From Acinetobacter baylyi DSM 14961 = CIP 107474 (GTDB taxonomy: Bacteria; Pseudomonadota; Gammaproteobacteria; Pseudomonadales; Moraxellaceae): 64,000 bases of DNA. This document shows positions 3,886 to 58,288 of this stretch, piece by piece. The first letter of the stretch is position 1, and each line of letters starts with the position of its first letter. The position numbers and the translations under genes were made by a program. The stretch lies in assembly GCF_000368685.1 (NCBI RefSeq), contig NZ_KB849631.1:124001-188000 (forward strand), read 5' to 3'. The notes under the pieces were generated by a model. It made no database searches, was not told where the DNA came from, and saw only the letters and a program-made list of their open reading frames with translations.

Positions 3886-4931
3886 CAGGCTGAGGTCAGG
3901 TCCTGCACATACCAATGCATGGCTTTATGAACCCCTTGCGCAAATCTGTATTCTGGTTGATACCCCAGTAACTGACTAATCTTGCCAATATCAGCCTGTG
4001 AATGGCGCACATCACCTGCACGAAACTCACGATATACCGCAGGCTTGTTGTAATGAATCCCATTTTCAGCCAGAGCACTTTGTAGTGTGGCAAATAACTG
4101 GTTAAGTGTGGTTCGATCCCCCACCGCCACGTTATACACCTGATTTTTAGCGGCTGCATCTTGCGTTGTGGCTGCCAAAAGATTGGCCTGAACCGTATTT
4201 TCGATAAAACAGAAATCGCGACTGGTTTCACCATCACCATTGATAAAAACATCCTCGCCCTGAATCATGGCTGCGGTCCATTTTGGGATGACCGCTGCAT
4301 AGGCACCATTTGGGTCCTGACGCTGCCCAAATACATTAAAGTAACGCAGTCCAATACAGTAAAAGCCATAACTGCGTGCAAATACATCGGCATACAGCTC
4401 ATTAACATATTTGGTGACCGCATACGGTGAAAGCGGTTTGCCAATATGATCTTCCAGTTTTGGCAAGGCAGGATGGTCACCATAAGTGGAGCTACTGGCA
4501 GCATAGGTAAAACTTTTGACTTGTGCATCACGCGCAGCCACCAGCATATTTAAGAAGCCGCCAATGTTCACGCTATTGGTCGTAATCGGGTCGACTAATG
4601 AGCGTGGCACAGAACCCAGTGCAGCCTGATGCAGTACATAATCCACGCCTTCACATGCAGCCTGACAGTCCTGCAACTGACAGATATCACCGCGAATAAA
4701 CTTAAAATTATTCCACTGCTCGCGACTCACCAAACCTTGAACTTCATCCAGATTGTGCTGGTGCCCTGTGGCAAAGTTATCTAGCCCAATCACGCGTTGA
4801 TCAAGCTTAAGCAGTGTCTCAAGCAAATTTGAGCCAATAAACCCTGCAACGCCTGTAATCAACCAAGTCTTGGGTGCGGCCTGCAATGTGATACATTGTT
4901 TTTGATAAGCTGTCATGACCATATCATCCAT
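3885..4931 (-). CDS. tviC: UDP-N-acetylhexosamine C4-epimerase, TviC/WbpP family
   Basis: An extended short-chain dehydrogenase/reductase. An NAD-binding glycine motif lies near residue 27 ([13 protein letters not shown]), the catalytic SSSTYGD and YAVTK (Tyr-x3-Lys) follow, and [21 protein letters not shown] is the signature of WbpP/TviC enzymes, which interconvert UDP-GlcNAc and UDP-GalNAc or their uronates. Several in-frame starts exist (MDDMVM); the first is kept. It lies 14 bases downstream of the tviB-like dehydrogenase, its usual partner, and overlaps the flippase start. In Acinetobacter K loci such genes are also called gne. Whether the substrate is the sugar or its uronate is not resolved. 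Confidence 0.9.
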
Positions 4932-4945
4932 CCTGAGTGTGCGAC

Positions 4946-6238
4946 TTACAGACGAATATCTGACTGCTGACGATCCAGCACATATTTCAGATCATAAATC
5001 ACATGGTTACTGCGTCCCAGCGCATGTATGGCGGCTGCACCCATTGCTTTAAACTGCTGATGTGCCACCGCTAAAATGATGGCATCGTAACTGCCCTGCG
5101 CTGGCTCGGCAATCAGATCAATCGCATATTCATGACGCGTTTCTTCTGCATCTGCCCATGGGTCATAAACATCGACCTGCATGTTAAAATCTTTAAGCTC
5201 GCTAATAATATCGACAATTTTGGTATTACGAATATCGGGGCAGTTTTCTTTAAAAGTTAAGCCTAAAATCAGCACTTTGGCATCTTCAATCTGGATGCGC
5301 TTTTTGTTCATGCTCTTGATGAGCTGATTGGCCACGTACATACTCATGTTGTCGTTTAGACGACGCCCTGCCAGTATAATCTCTGGATGATAGCCAATCG
5401 CCTGAGCCTTATGCGTCAGGTAATACGGGTCAACCCCAATGCAGTGTCCACCCACCAAACCTGGGCGAAACGGCAAGAAATTCCATTTGGTTCCTGCGGC
5501 TTCAAGCACATCCTGCGTATCGATACCCATCTTATTAAAAATAATGGCAAGCTCATTGATTAAGGCAATATTGACATCACGCTGGGTGTTTTCAATCACC
5601 TTTGCTGCTTCTGCGACTTTAATACTTGGCGCCTTATGCGTACCCACTTCAATAATCAATTGGTACACTGCATCGACATAATCTGCAACTTCTGGTGTAG
5701 AACCTGCCGTGATTTTTAAAATATTGGTCACGCGGTGGGCTTTATCGCCTGGATTAATACGCTCTGGACTATAGCCTGTAAAAAAATCCTGATTGAAAGT
5801 TAGACCTGACACCTGTTCCAGTACAGGGACACAGACTTCTTCGGTGGCACCCGGATATACCGTCGACTCATACACCACGATATCGTCTTTTTTGAGCACC
5901 TTGCCAATGCTTTGTGAAGCCTTGATTAGTGGGGTCAAGTCAGGCTGTTTAAACTGATCGATTGGGGTAGGTACGGTCACAATAAAGAAATTACAGTCTT
6001 TCAAGTCCGATAGATCACAAGAATAACTTAACAACTGTGCCTGCTTGAGTTCTTCGGGAGTCACTTCAAGGGTATGATCTTGCCCCTGCTGTAGCTCTGC
6101 CACACGCTTTTGATGGATATCAAAACCCACAACAGATACATGCTTGCCAAACTCTACGGCCAGCGGTAAGCCCACATAACCTAAACCAATGATAGCAATA
6201 CGAAGATTTTGTAGATCCAGAGGCATGCGACAAGACAT
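4946..6238 (-). CDS. tviB: UDP-N-acetyl-D-galactosamine/glucosamine 6-dehydrogenase (TviB/Gna)
   Basis: A 430-residue UDP-sugar 6-dehydrogenase that oxidises UDP-HexNAc to the uronate with two NAD. The N-terminal NAD fold has [16 protein letters not shown], the middle domain has [13 protein letters not shown], and the catalytic cysteine sits in [11 protein letters not shown] (Cys about residue 266). The C-terminal UDP-binding domain has [18 protein letters not shown], as in TviB, WbpO and Acinetobacter Gna. It is the first gene of the left minus-strand block, with a 315-base divergent region to manC upstream. With the adjacent TviC-like epimerase it should supply UDP-GalNAcA or UDP-GlcNAcA. 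Confidence 0.93.
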
Positions 6239-50012: not shown

Positions 50013-50885
50013 TTAGGCTAGATCGAGAAGCAATTGATTGCGCTGCTCAAGTGTTTGAATGGCAGCTGAAAAATCTACCTGTGTCGCGCGCTCAAGATCC
50101 ATTTCGCTATACATTTGCTGCACACAATGTAATACGTCTGCCGGTTGGCCTACAGCTTTTATCAGGTCGATGGCGATCCCAATATCTTTTTGCAGCAGAT
50201 TTAGTGCAAATGTTTTATGAAAGCCACGGCTTAAAATTTTCTGCGGCATGATCGTTTCAGACATGGTACTTTTACCACTCGAATGATTAATACAAGCCAA
50301 AGCAGCATCTAGATGAACCGCATGGGCTTTAAGTACAGACATGCCCTCACTCAATGCCCATAGATTAGCAGCCATCAAAATATTATTAACCGCCTTAACG
50401 GCAAAACCTGCTCCACTGTCACCGACATGCTCGATCAATCCAGCAAAAGCCTGAATGATAGGTTGGGCACGCTCAAAAGCAGTACGCTCACCACCAATCA
50501 TCACCGTCAATGTGCCCTTTTCAGCGCCAATCGTTTGCCCTGAAACAGGTGCATCCAAAAAATCCACACCATGCTGTTTGAGGTGTCGACTGAGTTGTTG
50601 TGCCGATGCAGGAACACCACTGGTACAGTCAATCCAGACACTGCCAGAACGTGGTGGATAAGCTGCAATCACAGCTTCCACCTCGGCACTGGTGGGTAAA
50701 CAGGAAAAAATTAAATCTGCCTGTACCAATTGTTCTAGCTCCACCGCCAAACTACCAAACTGCATTGCATGTGCTTCGGCTTTATGCTGAGTACGGTTCC
50801 AGACCATCACAGTGGCATCGAGTTGGGTCAAGTGGCCTGCCATATGCCAGCCCATGGCCCCTAATCCAATAAATCCGATACGCAT
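50013..50885 (-). CDS. 3-hydroxyisobutyrate dehydrogenase-family reductase in the rut operon
   Basis: 290 residues. N-terminal NAD(P) fold IGFIGLGAMGWHMAGHL, substrate loop DFLDAPVSGQTIGAEKGTL, and catalytic lysine in GFAVKAVNNILMAANLWAL. The family includes 3-hydroxyisobutyrate dehydrogenase and tartronate-semialdehyde reductase. It is the last gene of the operon, 15 bases after the permease. In E. coli the final rut step, malonic semialdehyde to 3-hydroxypropionate, uses RutE or YdfG; no rutE is here, so this protein may do that reduction. That role is inference from position and chemistry. Confidence 0.85.
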   Translation of the reverse strand: MRIGFIGLGAMGWHMAGHLTQLDATVMVWNRTQHKAEAHAMQFGSLAVELEQLVQADLIFSCLPTSAEVEAVIAAYPPRSGSVWIDCTSGVPASAQQLSRHLKQHGVDFLDAPVSGQTIGAEKGTLTVMIGGERTAFERAQPIIQAFAGLIEHVGDSGAGFAVKAVNNILMAANLWALSEGMSVLKAHAVHLDAALACINHSSGKSTMSETIMPQKILSRGFHKTFALNLLQKDIGIAIDLIKAVGQPADVLHCVQQMYSEMDLERATQVDFSAAIQTLEQRNQLLLDLA

Positions 50886-53332: not shown

Positions 53333-54070
53333 TTAAGCAGTTTTGGCAAGCTGTTGATTGTGTTGAAACGTATTAACAAAACTTTGTGTATCCGACACCC
53401 AGCCAAAAAAGGTTTTGATGTTGTACATGCTGGCACGATGCATTTCGACTGGTCCTGCCTGATAACAAGCATCGTCTAACGCCACTCCAAAATATTCGAG
53501 AAAAAATCCATCCCGTAAAGTCGACTCCACACAAACATTGGTCGCAATACCAACGAAGACTAGATTACGAATGCCACGCGCCCGTAACATGCTGTCGAGC
53601 GCTGTATTAAAAAAACCGCTATAACGTGGTTTTTCAATCACAATATCTTGGCTTTTCGGCTGTAACTCATCAATCAGTTCAAAATCCCAACCGCCTTTGG
53701 CCAGTAATTTGCCTTGTAGCTCAGGTTGCTTACGCATGGTTTTAAGTGCATTGGATTTATGAAAATTAGGTGAACCTGCGCCTCCAGCTTCTACATATTG
53801 ATTGTCCCAACCATTTTTAAAATAAATTACCTGAATGCCAGCAGCATGTGCCGCCGTAACTGCTTTTTGAATATTTTCGACAACAGGCTTAGTTTTAGAA
53901 ACATCAAAACCCGCGAGGTCCAGATATCCTCCAATCGAGGTATAGGCATTTTGCATATCAACCACGATCAGTGCTGTTTGCTCGGGCGCTAGCTGGATGG
54001 CCTCAGGTTCTGCTTTCAGAACACGTCCTGTGCCTGCACGTTCGGTAAAATCTGCAATGACAGTATTCAT
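53333..54070 (-). CDS. rutB: Ureidoacrylate amidohydrolase
   Basis: 245 residues, isochorismatase-like cysteine hydrolase. The Asp is in [19 protein letters not shown], the Lys in [20 protein letters not shown], the nucleophilic Cys in [20 protein letters not shown]. It splits ureidoacrylate to aminoacrylate, CO2 and ammonia. Its start overlaps the rutA stop as ATGA. Confidence 0.95.
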
Positions 54071-55176
54071 GCGCTTTTCTCCAATGGGGTAACAGGTTGA
54101 TATTCGGCCACGATATCTTGACGGGATGTCATTAAGGGTTGGATGCGTTCGCCAAAGTCTTCAACCCCCTGCACAAAATCATCAAAGGTCAGTAAAATGC
54201 CTTCTGTGCCTTTAATTTCGGCAATTTCGTCTAGCATCGCAGCGACTTTTTCATAGGAACCCACGAGAGTCCCCATATTGATATTCACAGGTGAAACACT
54301 AGATGCCATTTGGCGAATATTGGTATCGGCACCTGATTTAGTATCTTTGCCGCCCTGATTCATCAGCCAGTTAATGGCTTCTACGTCGGCACCATCGTTA
54401 TAGCTTTGCCACTTGGCCATCGCTTCAGCATCGGTTTCTGCGGCAATCACCATAAACAACACATAGGTTTGAACATCACGCCCAGTCTGATCGGTAAAGT
54501 GTTTCAAACGGTCATTAATGCCTGCGTAAGCGGTTGGCGTATTTAAGCCCTTACCAAACACGAAATTGTAATCAGCATGTTGTGCAGAAAATTCGAGTCC
54601 TGTATCAGACTGTCCTGCACAGATAATTTTCATCTCGGCTTGTGGTTGAGGGCTAACTCGACAATCTTCCATCTGAAAATGTTCACCTTTAAAGTCGGAT
54701 TGTCCTGTCGCCCAAAGCTCTCTCAGAATTTGTACATATTCAGACAGATATTCATAACGTTTGGCAAAGTATTCATCACCTGGCCACATACCCATTTGAC
54801 TATATTCAGGCGCCTGCCAACCTGTCACCACATTAAGACCAAAGCGTCCGTTAGAGATCGAATCAATGGTTGAGGCCATACGCGCAACAATCGCAGGTGG
54901 CATGACCAATGTGGCAGCAGTGGCATAGATTTTAATTTTACTGGTCACTGCGGCTAGTCCAGCCATCAAAGTAAAGGTTTCCAGATTGTGATCCCAAAAT
55001 TCGGTTTTTCCACCAAAACCACGTAGCTTGATCATCGACAAAGCAAAGTCAAAGCCATAATGTTCCGCACGTTGTACAATTTTTTTATTCAATTCAAAGC
55101 TTGGCATATACTGCGGCGCATTTTCGGATAGTAGCCAGCCATTGTTTCCGATGGGGCAAAAAACACCTATTTTCAT
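54067..55176 (-). CDS. rutA: Pyrimidine monooxygenase
   Basis: 369 residues, luciferase-like FMN-dependent enzyme that opens the uracil ring to ureidoacrylate. It shows [60 protein letters not shown], and [20 protein letters not shown], all close to E. coli RutA. First gene of the operon; a RutR-type palindrome lies about 180 bases upstream. Confidence 0.97.
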
Positions 55177-55628
55177 ATCGGTAATCCTCTTGGGAGATGC
55201 GATTCATGAATTACATGAGCGTCACCTAAAACTGATGATTGTCTTTTTCAAGAATGGCCTATTCTTATATTTTTTACATTGCATACAACGTGCCAACTTT
55301 ATTAAAACTATATTTTTCAATATTTTAATAAAAACATATGGTCAACCATTTTTTACCATTTAGTAAAATAATGAATCATTTTGCTGCACTATTTTTGTGT
55401 GTACTGATTCAATAATGTGCAAAATCCGAGCATGGCAGTTGGTTGTTACCTATTGGGTATCTGCCCCACTTTGAAAATTTACAAATTAAAGTAATCTGGC
55501 GATGCTGGATAATTTCTTGACAGATGAGCGACTTAGCCCAGATAAAGATAAAGAAAATCGCTCGGGACTGTGCACAAATCGCTCGGATTCCCTTACAATG
55601 AGCTGACCTTTCCCAATTTGTTATCTCA
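55177..55628. promoter_or_regulatory. Divergent regulatory region between rutA and rutR
   Basis: About 450 bases without a convincing gene. It contains a RutR-like palindrome (55351-55368) and an adjacent 12-bp perfect palindrome ATGGT-CA-ACCAT (55338-55349) that contains the half-site TGGTCAA. No nitrogen-control sigma-54 promoter was recognised. Confidence 0.65.
55351..55368. promoter_or_regulatory. RutR-box-like operator upstream of rutA
   Basis: An 18-base near-palindrome TTTTACCATTTAGTAAAA with one central mismatch. It resembles the known RutR consensus TTGACCA-nn-TGGTCAA and the element upstream of rutD in this window. Uracil-sensing RutR would repress here. Confidence 0.68.
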
Positions 55629-56246
55629 ATGGAACAAAAAAAGAGTACGCAAAAACGCAATCAGCTCCTCAATGCCGCTCTGGATGTATTTTCCACCTAT
55701 GGCTTTAGTGGGGCAAGTCTGGACGAAATCGCACAACTCGCGCAGATGCATAAGTCCAATATCTTTTATTATTATGAAAATAAAGAAGCACTCTATGTAG
55801 AAGTGCTGACGACAGTATTACAAAAATGGCTGGCGCCTTTGCAGACGCTTGAAGTCGAGCTTGAGCCAACAGAAGCACTGGCACATTATTTAATTCAAAA
55901 AATTGAAGTCTCACGGACTCAACCTAAAGCGTCCAAACTGTTCGCACTGGAGATTATTCAAGGGGCACCACATATTCTGGAAATTTTAAAAGGCCCATTA
56001 AAAAAGCTCTTCAAACGCAAAGCTAAAGTCATCCAGACATGGCAAGAACAAGGTAAAATCTCGGCGGATATTGATCCCGAGCTACTGATTCTAAATATCT
56101 GGGCAATTACCCAAAACTATGCAGATTTTAGTATCCAAATGGAAATGGTCACAGGCAAAACCCTAAAAAATAAAAGCATGCATCAACGTGCGATTGAGCA
56201 CACTGTACACATGATGCTCTATGGTGTTATTCCTCGTTCAGTGTGA
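55629..56246 (+). CDS. rutR: TetR-family regulator of pyrimidine catabolism
   Basis: 205 residues. DNA-binding domain: KRNQLLNAALDVFSTYGFSG, ASLDEIAQLAQMHKSNIFYY. The RutR-typical ligand domain includes SRTQPKASKLFALEIIQGAP and a tail HQRAIEHTVHMMLYGVI. E. coli RutR releases DNA on binding uracil or thymine. It is divergent from the rut operon and convergent with rutD. Confidence 0.93.
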   Translation: MEQKKSTQKRNQLLNAALDVFSTYGFSGASLDEIAQLAQMHKSNIFYYYENKEALYVEVLTTVLQKWLAPLQTLEVELEPTEALAHYLIQKIEVSRTQPKASKLFALEIIQGAPHILEILKGPLKKLFKRKAKVIQTWQEQGKISADIDPELLILNIWAITQNYADFSIQMEMVTGKTLKNKSMHQRAIEHTVHMMLYGVIPRSV

Positions 56247-56273
56247 CAAGATCAGATCAGTTGATTAAGGATG

Positions 56274-56300
56274 TGCCATCGTTTTTACGATGGCATTTTT
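56274..56300. terminator. Terminator between rutR and rutD
   Basis: Stem TGCCATCG/CGATGGCA with a 6-base loop and a T-run on the plus strand, between two convergent genes. Confidence 0.85.
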
Positions 56301-56318: not shown

Positions 56319-57119
56319 TTAAGTTGGTGCTGATGTCTTAAGAAAATCAAGCATCAGTTGATTGACCTGCCGAGCCTCAGTGACTGTAGATGCATGTCCC
56401 CCATAAGGCAGTAGCTTGAGCTGCGCATCTGGTAATTTTTTCCATAAATTCAAAGATTGTACGTATGGCACCAACATATCGTCCTGATTAGCGATCAGGC
56501 ACACAGGCAATTGTTTTAACGTGTCTATACGTGCAGTGTTTACCTGATACTGCATGAGGGCATTTAACCGCTTTAAGACATTGGCATGTGGCGGAAAATC
56601 GGATTGCATTTTGGCCTCTTGCTGCTCAAGTAAAGCTGTATGTTCAGAAATCCATAAGGGTGGATACAAAAACAAAGCCTGAGCATGTAAATATGCTGCT
56701 GTGCCTGCATGCTGTAATAACGCGATACGGGTGGTAAAACATCTTAAGGTGTGTGGATCGAGCTGCTGCCAGGCATTAATCAAGGTCAGGCTTAACAGTT
56801 GACACGTTTCAGATGCATAACGATGCGCCAGTTCTATCCCAATAAATCCGCCTAATGCATGTCCAATAAAATGAAAGCGTACGATGTTGAGTTGCTGTAA
56901 TAACTGCTTGACTTGTAAGGCCAGATGCTCAAATGAATAGCCATCAGCTAACAACTCACTCGACGCGTGACACCCTTCCTGATCATAAATCAATACATGA
57001 AAATACTGCCGAAATACATCCAGTTGTGCCTGCCAAAAACTGCCATGCCCACCCAGACCCGATGAAAACACCACATAAGATGCATTTTCATCGGAGTGCT
57101 TAAAAAGTTGATAGTTCAT
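56319..57119 (-). CDS. rutD: Putative aminoacrylate hydrolase, alpha/beta-hydrolase fold
   Basis: 266 residues, alpha/beta hydrolase matching E. coli RutD through NAWQQLDPHTLRCFTTRIAL, ALFLYPPLWISEHTALLE, LKRLNALMQYQ and LLPYGGHASTVTEARQVN. The nucleophile elbow reads FIGHALGGFIG: Ala replaces the usual Ser, as I recall it also does in E. coli RutD, so ordinary serine-hydrolase chemistry is unlikely. It is not in the rutABCFG operon but downstream of a transporter gene, with a RutR-like palindrome ending one base before its ATG. No clear ribosome site is visible. Confidence 0.9.
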   Translation of the reverse strand: MNYQLFKHSDENASYVVFSSGLGGHGSFWQAQLDVFRQYFHVLIYDQEGCHASSELLADGYSFEHLALQVKQLLQQLNIVRFHFIGHALGGFIGIELAHRYASETCQLLSLTLINAWQQLDPHTLRCFTTRIALLQHAGTAAYLHAQALFLYPPLWISEHTALLEQQEAKMQSDFPPHANVLKRLNALMQYQVNTARIDTLKQLPVCLIANQDDMLVPYVQSLNLWKKLPDAQLKLLPYGGHASTVTEARQVNQLMLDFLKTSAPT

Positions 57120-57120
57120 T

Positions 57121-57138
57121 TTTAACCATTTGGTAAAA
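57121..57138. promoter_or_regulatory. RutR-box-like operator overlapping the rutD translation start region
   Basis: An 18-base near-perfect palindrome TTTAACCATTTGGTAAAA, one base upstream of the rutD ATG. It matches the RutR consensus layout (ACCA-nn-TGGT) more closely than the rutA-side element, suggesting rutD belongs to the RutR regulon despite its separation. Confidence 0.75.
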
Positions 57139-57163
57139 TCATGATCTAAATTATCAGCAAGAT

Positions 57164-58288
57164 TTATGCCGTTTCAGATTGTGCGCACGCCTTTTGTTGT
57201 TGCTGTAATTGCTGCAAGCAAGGTGAGAAAAACAATTGCCCACGATACGCCCCCTGAATCGTCTTAACTGCAACGCAACTCCATAATCCAACCAATATAA
57301 CACTTAAAATTACTGCAATATGATCAAATGCATTCCAACCGAGCAATTGTCCGAGCTGACTAAGCGCTAGCGTAAAAACACCTAATGGAAAGGTAAGCCC
57401 CCACCATCCTAAATTAAAAGGAATACCATGTTTAAGATGATGCAAGCTCGCAAACATCGCGATTCCAAGCCACCATACACCACATCCAAGTAACACCAGA
57501 CTGATCAGCTTTGCAGCTTGCTGTAGAAAAATACCAAAACTTTGCATTCCGATACTTTGTAATACATCGGGTGCATGTTGTCCTAATAACATCATGGCCA
57601 GTGCACCTGTACCAATTGGACCAATAGAAAGCCAGCTTGAAATTGCCAGTTCTTTTTCAGGCAGCTTATGCAGGGCCAGTCGTAATATCAACAAACTCAG
57701 AATTGCAAATGCAGGCAGTACAGACATGCCCCACAGCATATAACTCAGCCATAAAATTGAAATTGCCTGTGTACTATGTACAAACTCTGCCACCAACAGT
57801 CCGCCTGTCGCAGCCGCCACTTCGGCCGCTACGATGGGTAATAACCACATAGCGGTAATACTGTGCAAATGATGTTGCTGACGACTGAACATAAAATAAG
57901 GTACAACCCATCCAATCGAGATGACCAATACCACATCGATATACCATAACCACAACGCCAATTGTGGAAGATGCTGACCGAATACCGTATTTCCATACAT
58001 GAGTAAGCCATTAATTAGGGTAGCCAGTGCCATCGGAATCGCCCCTAGAAAAAGACTCATGCTGGGATGATGAAAAATCTGTCTTGCCTCATGAGGAAAT
58101 AAAGACCATCGAAGCATATAAAGGATACAAAATACACAAAATAGACATGTGTTGATCAACCAAAGTGCTGCACCTAGCGTATGTAATTCGGAAAAATGCC
58201 CCAATACAATGGCGACCACACCTGTTCCCATAATGGTGGTAAACCAATTTGGGGTAAATTGACGTATGATATTTCGCGTGTTCACCAT
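57164..58288 (-). CDS. TDT/SLAC1-family transporter
   Basis: 374 residues with about ten membrane spans and a cytoplasmic Gln-rich tail (LQQLQQQQKACAQ). NWFTTIMGTGVVAIVLGHFS at the N-terminus and LWWGLTFPLGVFTLALSQLG-like sequence near the end are typical of the tellurite-resistance/dicarboxylate transporter (TehA, Mae1, SLAC1, Ssu1) superfamily, which move organic acids, anions or sulfite. It precedes rutD by 45 bases on the same strand, so it may export an acid product of uracil breakdown, or it may only be a chance neighbour. Substrate unknown. Confidence 0.85.
   Translation of the reverse strand: MVNTRNIIRQFTPNWFTTIMGTGVVAIVLGHFSELHTLGAALWLINTCLFCVFCILYMLRWSLFPHEARQIFHHPSMSLFLGAIPMALATLINGLLMYGNTVFGQHLPQLALWLWYIDVVLVISIGWVVPYFMFSRQQHHLHSITAMWLLPIVAAEVAAATGGLLVAEFVHSTQAISILWLSYMLWGMSVLPAFAILSLLILRLALHKLPEKELAISSWLSIGPIGTGALAMMLLGQHAPDVLQSIGMQSFGIFLQQAAKLISLVLLGCGVWWLGIAMFASLHHLKHGIPFNLGWWGLTFPLGVFTLALSQLGQLLGWNAFDHIAVILSVILVGLWSCVAVKTIQGAYRGQLFFSPCLQQLQQQQKACAQSETA

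Follow-up and report, generated by a model that had tools for sequence, protein, structure and literature searches.

The rutD gene of Acinetobacter baylyi DSM 14961 = CIP 107474 looks like a small transcription unit of its own, preceded by a sigma-54-type promoter and, judging from the sequence, carrying a RutR-type palindrome within its predicted leader. The window comprises the whole analyzed stretch of 64,000 nucleotides (positions 124,001–188,000 of contig NZ_KB849631.1), and its rutD locus was compared with 65 others, giving 66 loci in total, with a second rutD copy in one genome (G134) left out. On this comparison, it is rather probable that rutD requires RpoN, that its transcript begins around position 57145 and has a leader some 26 nt long, and that a RutR-like protein would form a roadblock at +9 to +24, with rutABCFG depending on a second sigma-54 promoter. 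Two loci whose stretches lack rutA (L077 and L090) enter neither the rutA counts nor the RutA tree, which has 64 rows. At one further locus (L100), the anchor marking the start was shifted by hand from an internal ATG to a point 45 bases upstream; this anchor was used for the sigma-54 scoring and the RutA tree, and not for the rutA-element and box-position counts.

The rutD gene (56319–57119, minus strand) was identified as an ORF of 266 aa by family search and alignment. It converges with a gene for a RutR-like TetR-family regulator (55629–56246, plus strand), assigned by domain and structure matches, in agreement with the earlier note, and a strong stem-loop that is terminator-like on the plus strand (56273–56296) lies between the two convergent ends. 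The minus strand of the window also carries rutA, rutB, rutC, rutF, rutG, and a 3-hydroxyisobutyrate-dehydrogenase-like (HIBADH-like) gene. The description of rutD as detached has to be qualified: at all 64 loci with rutA in view, the window included, the gene shares the strand of rutA and is situated upstream of it. The distance between rutD and rutA is 283–404 bp at 38 of these 64 loci and larger at the others. The identities of the second RutR-like copies and the distances to tdt relatives, like the RutR identities of the permease set and the RutD and RutA medians given below, refer to tblastn stretches and not to whole genes. A close RutR-like gene is located between rutD and rutA in the window clade (seven rows, SH-aLRT 99 in the RutA tree), and ten other loci hold a second, 45–51% identical RutR-like copy in the same interval. 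A reductase gene directly follows rutD at 15 of 66 loci, and the one member tested scores as malonic semialdehyde reductase.

The close RutR-like gene was inspected in five relatives: there it is found beside an ABC-transporter ATPase gene like ssuB of the window, no rut genes occur within its 1.5 kb flanks, and in four cases its neighbors include an mtnN-like and a tdt-like gene. In the window clade, it seems that the rut genes were placed around the RutR-like gene. At four remote rutR loci, the mtnN-like gene is situated between rutR and tdt. In the window, the tdt/SLAC1-family transporter gene (57164–58288, minus strand) precedes rutD on the same strand by 44 bp, an interval (57120–57163) in which no gene fits. 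The labels ssuB, mtnN, and ppc are provisional, being read from the protein letters and not from a family search. The HIBADH-like dehydrogenase gene (50013–50885) is the last gene of the rut operon, and a rutE search of the window's genome returned only a 32% fragment match. This dehydrogenase may replace RutE; since the HIBADH-like gene and rutE are both present at 8 of the 66 genus loci, the exchange is not strict.

The bases before rutD align on GGCAT-N5-TTGCT or close variants. In the window, this sigma-54-type promoter element (CGGCATAAATCTTGCT; 57156–57171, minus strand), recognized by alignment and scoring, overlaps the stop codon of tdt (57164–57166). A sigma-54-type element occupies positions -58 to -44 from the rutD ATG at all 66 loci, and the same score was reached before none of 433 further mechanical ORFs (same strand, 150 codons or more) and at 120 of 13,200 random anchors, the score requiring GG and GC plus at least five of eight further positions and having been set after the alignment had been viewed. 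The GG and GC doublets, 12 bp apart, are conserved in every case, at 66 of 66 loci for rutD and at 64 of 64 loci for rutA where the latter is in view. The window's genome encodes rpoN (PF04552, 1.5e-67), and its ntrC also scores over the cut-off. The transcription start of rutD is predicted at 57145 (minus strand), 12 bases downstream of the -12 C. Since the element at 57156–57171 predicts a 26-nt leader, rutD is probably not leaderless, and the leaderless transcript that the earlier note had entertained was rejected in view of this conserved element. An NtrC site before rutD likewise found no support above chance, which leaves the activator of rutD unplaced: NtrC-like sites with at most one mismatch were found at none of the 66 loci and in 25 of 1,980 random stretches (300 bases each).

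The RutR-type palindrome in the predicted rutD leader is an 18-mer at 57121–57138 ending one base before the ATG, as had been read previously, and its core 16-mer (TTNACCANNTGGTNAA; 57122–57137) spans -18 to -3 from the ATG, or about +9 to +24 from the predicted start. The similar 18-mer upstream of rutA was also found as described. The expectation that binding at rutD would cover the promoter was not upheld, since the box is predicted to lie at about +9 to +24 and not over the -24/-12 element. The 16-mer with at most 2 of 12 mismatches is located exactly 18 bases before the rutD ATG at 15 of 66 loci, compared with about 1.9e-4 per position in the same 66 loci; rows that are related do not count as independent, and the 15 carriers comprise the window clade of seven rows and others scattered on the RutA tree. 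In one more locus (L078), the leader box is displaced by one base. Across the 64 rows of the RutA tree, the leader box is present in 15, a weak site or half-site in 12, and a box on the upstream side of the promoter in 17, whereas 20 have neither. Since 20 rows have no recognized box and 17 have an upstream one, control of rutD does not depend on the leader position. The repressor site seems to alternate between the upstream and leader positions among lineages, around a fixed promoter element.

The case for the palindrome rests on its position and not on its rarity. In its own genome, TTNACCANNTGGTNAA has two exact sites versus none for the reversed control, and 439 versus 432 sites with up to two mismatches; over 149 genus genomes, the exact sites number 187 versus 260 for the reversed control (summed by hand). 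Rarity was dropped as a proof, the reversed control being at least as frequent. Eight loci with exact sites elsewhere, inspected by eye, share no theme, except for two (L155 and L176) with the same neighbors.

The first gene of rutABCFG is rutA (54067–55176, minus strand; ORF and family search). Alignment places a sigma-54-type promoter before it (TGGCACGTTGTATGCA; 55280–55295, minus strand), and an element of this type is present at all 64 loci with rutA in view. Upstream of this promoter lie a RutR-type box (55351–55368) with 1 of 12 mismatches and, 22 bp from it, a second, imperfect one (55330–55345) with 3 of 12 mismatches. Beyond the rutA box, an NtrC-like palindrome (55385–55401) has 2 of 10 mismatches, which alone is within the chance range. 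Boxes with at most two mismatches are located 68–72 bp upstream of the rutA sigma-54 element in 25 cases; other rutA boxes are found elsewhere, including nine on its downstream side. At 17 of 64 loci, rutA is preceded by NtrC-like palindromes with at most one mismatch (410-base stretches), compared with 25 of 1,980 random stretches of 300 bases.

The only other exact match to the 16-mer in the own genome precedes a gene for an NCS2 permease paralogous to RutG. Of the 146 genomes matching this permease, 69 were used to compare its upstream regions: the 30 top matches and 39 others selected by hand. The box is locked at -125 to -128 before permease orthologs in 39 of the 54 genomes with a close RutR (at least 83% identity), in none of 10 genomes with a diverged RutR, and in one of five without a close RutR, this single exception being a 470-contig assembly. 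As 15 of the 54 close-RutR genomes have no permease box, the link between RutR and the box is not universal. Six genomes have no RutR match at all: three of them are in the permease set (G019, with 470 contigs; G030, which is 65% complete; and G098), two were left out (G031 and G143), and one (G131) is represented only by a 10-base dummy. The group without a close RutR also includes two genomes with a 51% copy (G014 and G144). At one locus (L115), the NCS2 permease gene occupies 4666–5961 on the minus strand and the RutR-type box 6073–6088. The permease box also occurs in genomes without a RutD over the cut-off, for example G037 and G041, and in three genomes without a close RutR (loci L231, L239, and L240) the permease has a sigma-54-like element at -92/-93 and the box is absent. 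The NCS2 permease is likely an older target of the regulator, and the comparison suggests that this older, genus-wide target is a nucleobase permease.

The regulator itself contains a TetR_C_3 domain (the YcdC-type C-terminal domain, 1.6e-54) and a TetR_N domain (1.1e-10), and its best match among solved structures is E. coli RutR. In the alignment, it keeps the lysines K52 and K62 (E. coli RutR numbering). Its scores stay below both RutR equivalog cut-offs (220.3 versus 368 for TIGR03613 and 204.6 versus 230 for PRK15008), and it is therefore named RutR-like; by comparison, E. coli RutR exceeds both cut-offs, whereas the two second copies tested from Acinetobacter reach neither of them. A RutR-like match is present in 143 of 149 genus genomes, in two of these only as the 51% copy, and in 77 of the 83 genomes without a RutD over the cut-off. 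In the five loci inspected in which rutR is away from rut genes, no box with at most one mismatch was found near it. The proposal that RutR controls both units is retained in part: comparison shows RutR-type boxes at rutD and rutA, with positions kept in many relatives, and the regulator resembles RutR but scores below both RutR cut-offs.

The window RutD scores 409.2 bits against the NCBIfam model TIGR03611, over its cut-off of 238.5. The nucleophile elbow GHALGG was read at the base level and is present, but its alanine, to which the earlier note had pointed, is ordinary: GHA(L/I)G is found in all 66 Acinetobacter RutD proteins compared, the window included, and E. coli RutD (3v48) aligns with GHALG at the elbow. 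An unusual active site was rejected in view of this alanine in 66 of 66 proteins; as aligned here, alanine is the family norm among all the RutD proteins compared. The 2012 RutD structure paper by Knapik reportedly presented the active site as non-canonical. Within the genus, no other of the six Rut proteins compared has diverged as far as RutD, whose median identity to the window is 51% (65 loci) versus 89% for RutA (63 loci). RutD-family matches occur in all 149 genus genomes searched, and 66 of these hold a RutD over the cut-off. Among 20 named relatives of the window RutD, 19 are from Acinetobacter, including A. soli and A. guerrae. A class-wide sample at E 1e-60 returned a RutD in one of 274 genomes, the window's own, so that the RutD comparison is informative only for the genus and E. 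coli.

These findings suggest a mechanism in which RNA polymerase with sigma-54 (RpoN) would transcribe rutD alone, from the start predicted near 57145 and through the 26-nt leader. In its ligand-free state, the RutR-like repressor would bind the palindrome at +9 to +24 and block promoter escape or early elongation, forming a roadblock just past the start site. Since the box lies past the predicted start, competition with the polymerase for the -24/-12 element is less likely than such a roadblock or a block to promoter escape. If E. coli is a guide, the ligand may be uracil or thymine. With a sigma-54 promoter and a repressor released by its ligand, expression would need both nitrogen limitation and a pyrimidine. 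For rutABCFG, a second sigma-54 promoter would be used, with RutR binding about 70 bp upstream, between the NtrC-like site and the promoter. It is conceivable, though on balance doubtful, that one repressor thereby acts on two sigma-54 promoters in two geometries, hindering looping at rutA, where it would sit between enhancer and promoter, and forming a roadblock at rutD, where its site lies past the start in place of a Shine–Dalgarno sequence. If this were true, the RutD step could switch on at a different threshold than ring opening.

Other explanations of the same arrangement were weighed against this mechanism. Transcription of rutD mainly by readthrough from tdt, with the palindrome as a minor internal element, would agree with the shared strand and the 44 bp gap, but a sigma-54-type element precedes rutD at every locus, and a tdt relative was detected at only 3 of the 65 other loci, each time about 720 bp from rutD; we consider this route improbable. 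A sigma-70 promoter repressed by RutR could instead start rutD, as a 9/12 match (CTGAAA-16-GATAAT, 57177–57150) overlaps the same spot. However, seven such matches occur in the region versus 6.7 expected by shuffling, and GATAAT varies in relatives, whereas the GG and TTGC of the sigma-54 element are constant, which leaves a sigma-70 start with little likelihood.

The identity of the binding protein and the level of action were considered in the same way. That another protein such as NtrC binds the palindrome, with RutR uninvolved, would be in keeping with the regulator's scores below the RutR cut-offs, with the 15 of 54 close-RutR genomes lacking the permease box, and with the similarity of NtrC sites, which are comparable palindromes. 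The ACCA-NN-TGGT spacing, however, is that of the RutR consensus, the NtrC site being one base longer, and genomes with a close RutR have the permease box most often; this alternative is unlikely. The palindrome might also act in RNA by masking the rutD start codon, which it abuts, and no clear Shine–Dalgarno sequence was seen by eye before rutD, the operator occupying that space. The rutD leader RNA is not unusually structured, however (fold z 0.08), which leaves an RNA hairpin at the palindrome unsupported and a DNA operator as the better fit, and the same motif is placed far from the starts at rutA and the permease. Masking in RNA is therefore very improbable. With the RutR-like roadblock as the preferred mechanism, the puzzle of a stray rutD becomes a testable scheme, in which the Acinetobacter Rut pathway looks like two sigma-54 units.

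Several elements of this scheme have counterparts in known systems. RutR of E. coli binds a palindrome of about 16 bp and represses rutA-G and rutR, and its K52 and K62 are said to contact DNA (PMC10891134); the rutA/rutR region is included in the tables of RpoN promoter selection (PMC8743547), and RutC and RutD are dispensable for E. coli on uridine (PMC8113886). For A. baumannii, the presence of a Rut pathway has been recorded in one strain (PMC6563999). Among the matches listed, subscription papers and regulon databases aside, no title addresses RutR or the control of rutD in Acinetobacter. RutR regulons were predicted in Proteobacteria for 68 genomes in 13 groups, with taxon-specific changes in the motif (PMC5343134), and the available part of this survey describes no leader-located site at rutD. 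The E. coli RutR (YcdC) and the window regulator have the YcdC-type C-terminal domain and the DNA-contact lysines in common, although the latter, unlike E. coli RutR, stays below both NCBIfam RutR cut-offs. Before rutA of E. coli, a sigma-54-type element is found at -44 and a site resembling the box, with 3 of 12 mismatches, at -124; the distance between the two is 80 bp, compared with 72 bp in the window. The rutD gene of E. coli comes after rutC within the rutA-G operon, whereas that of Acinetobacter has its own sigma-54-type element, and in the window lineage, unlike in E. coli, the rutD box is downstream of the predicted start. Whether a TetR-type protein is able to halt this polymerase after activation could be asked cleanly at a sigma-54 promoter whose 26-nt leader contains a repressor site. 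The control scheme is already known, and the leader geometry is a new, local variation of it.
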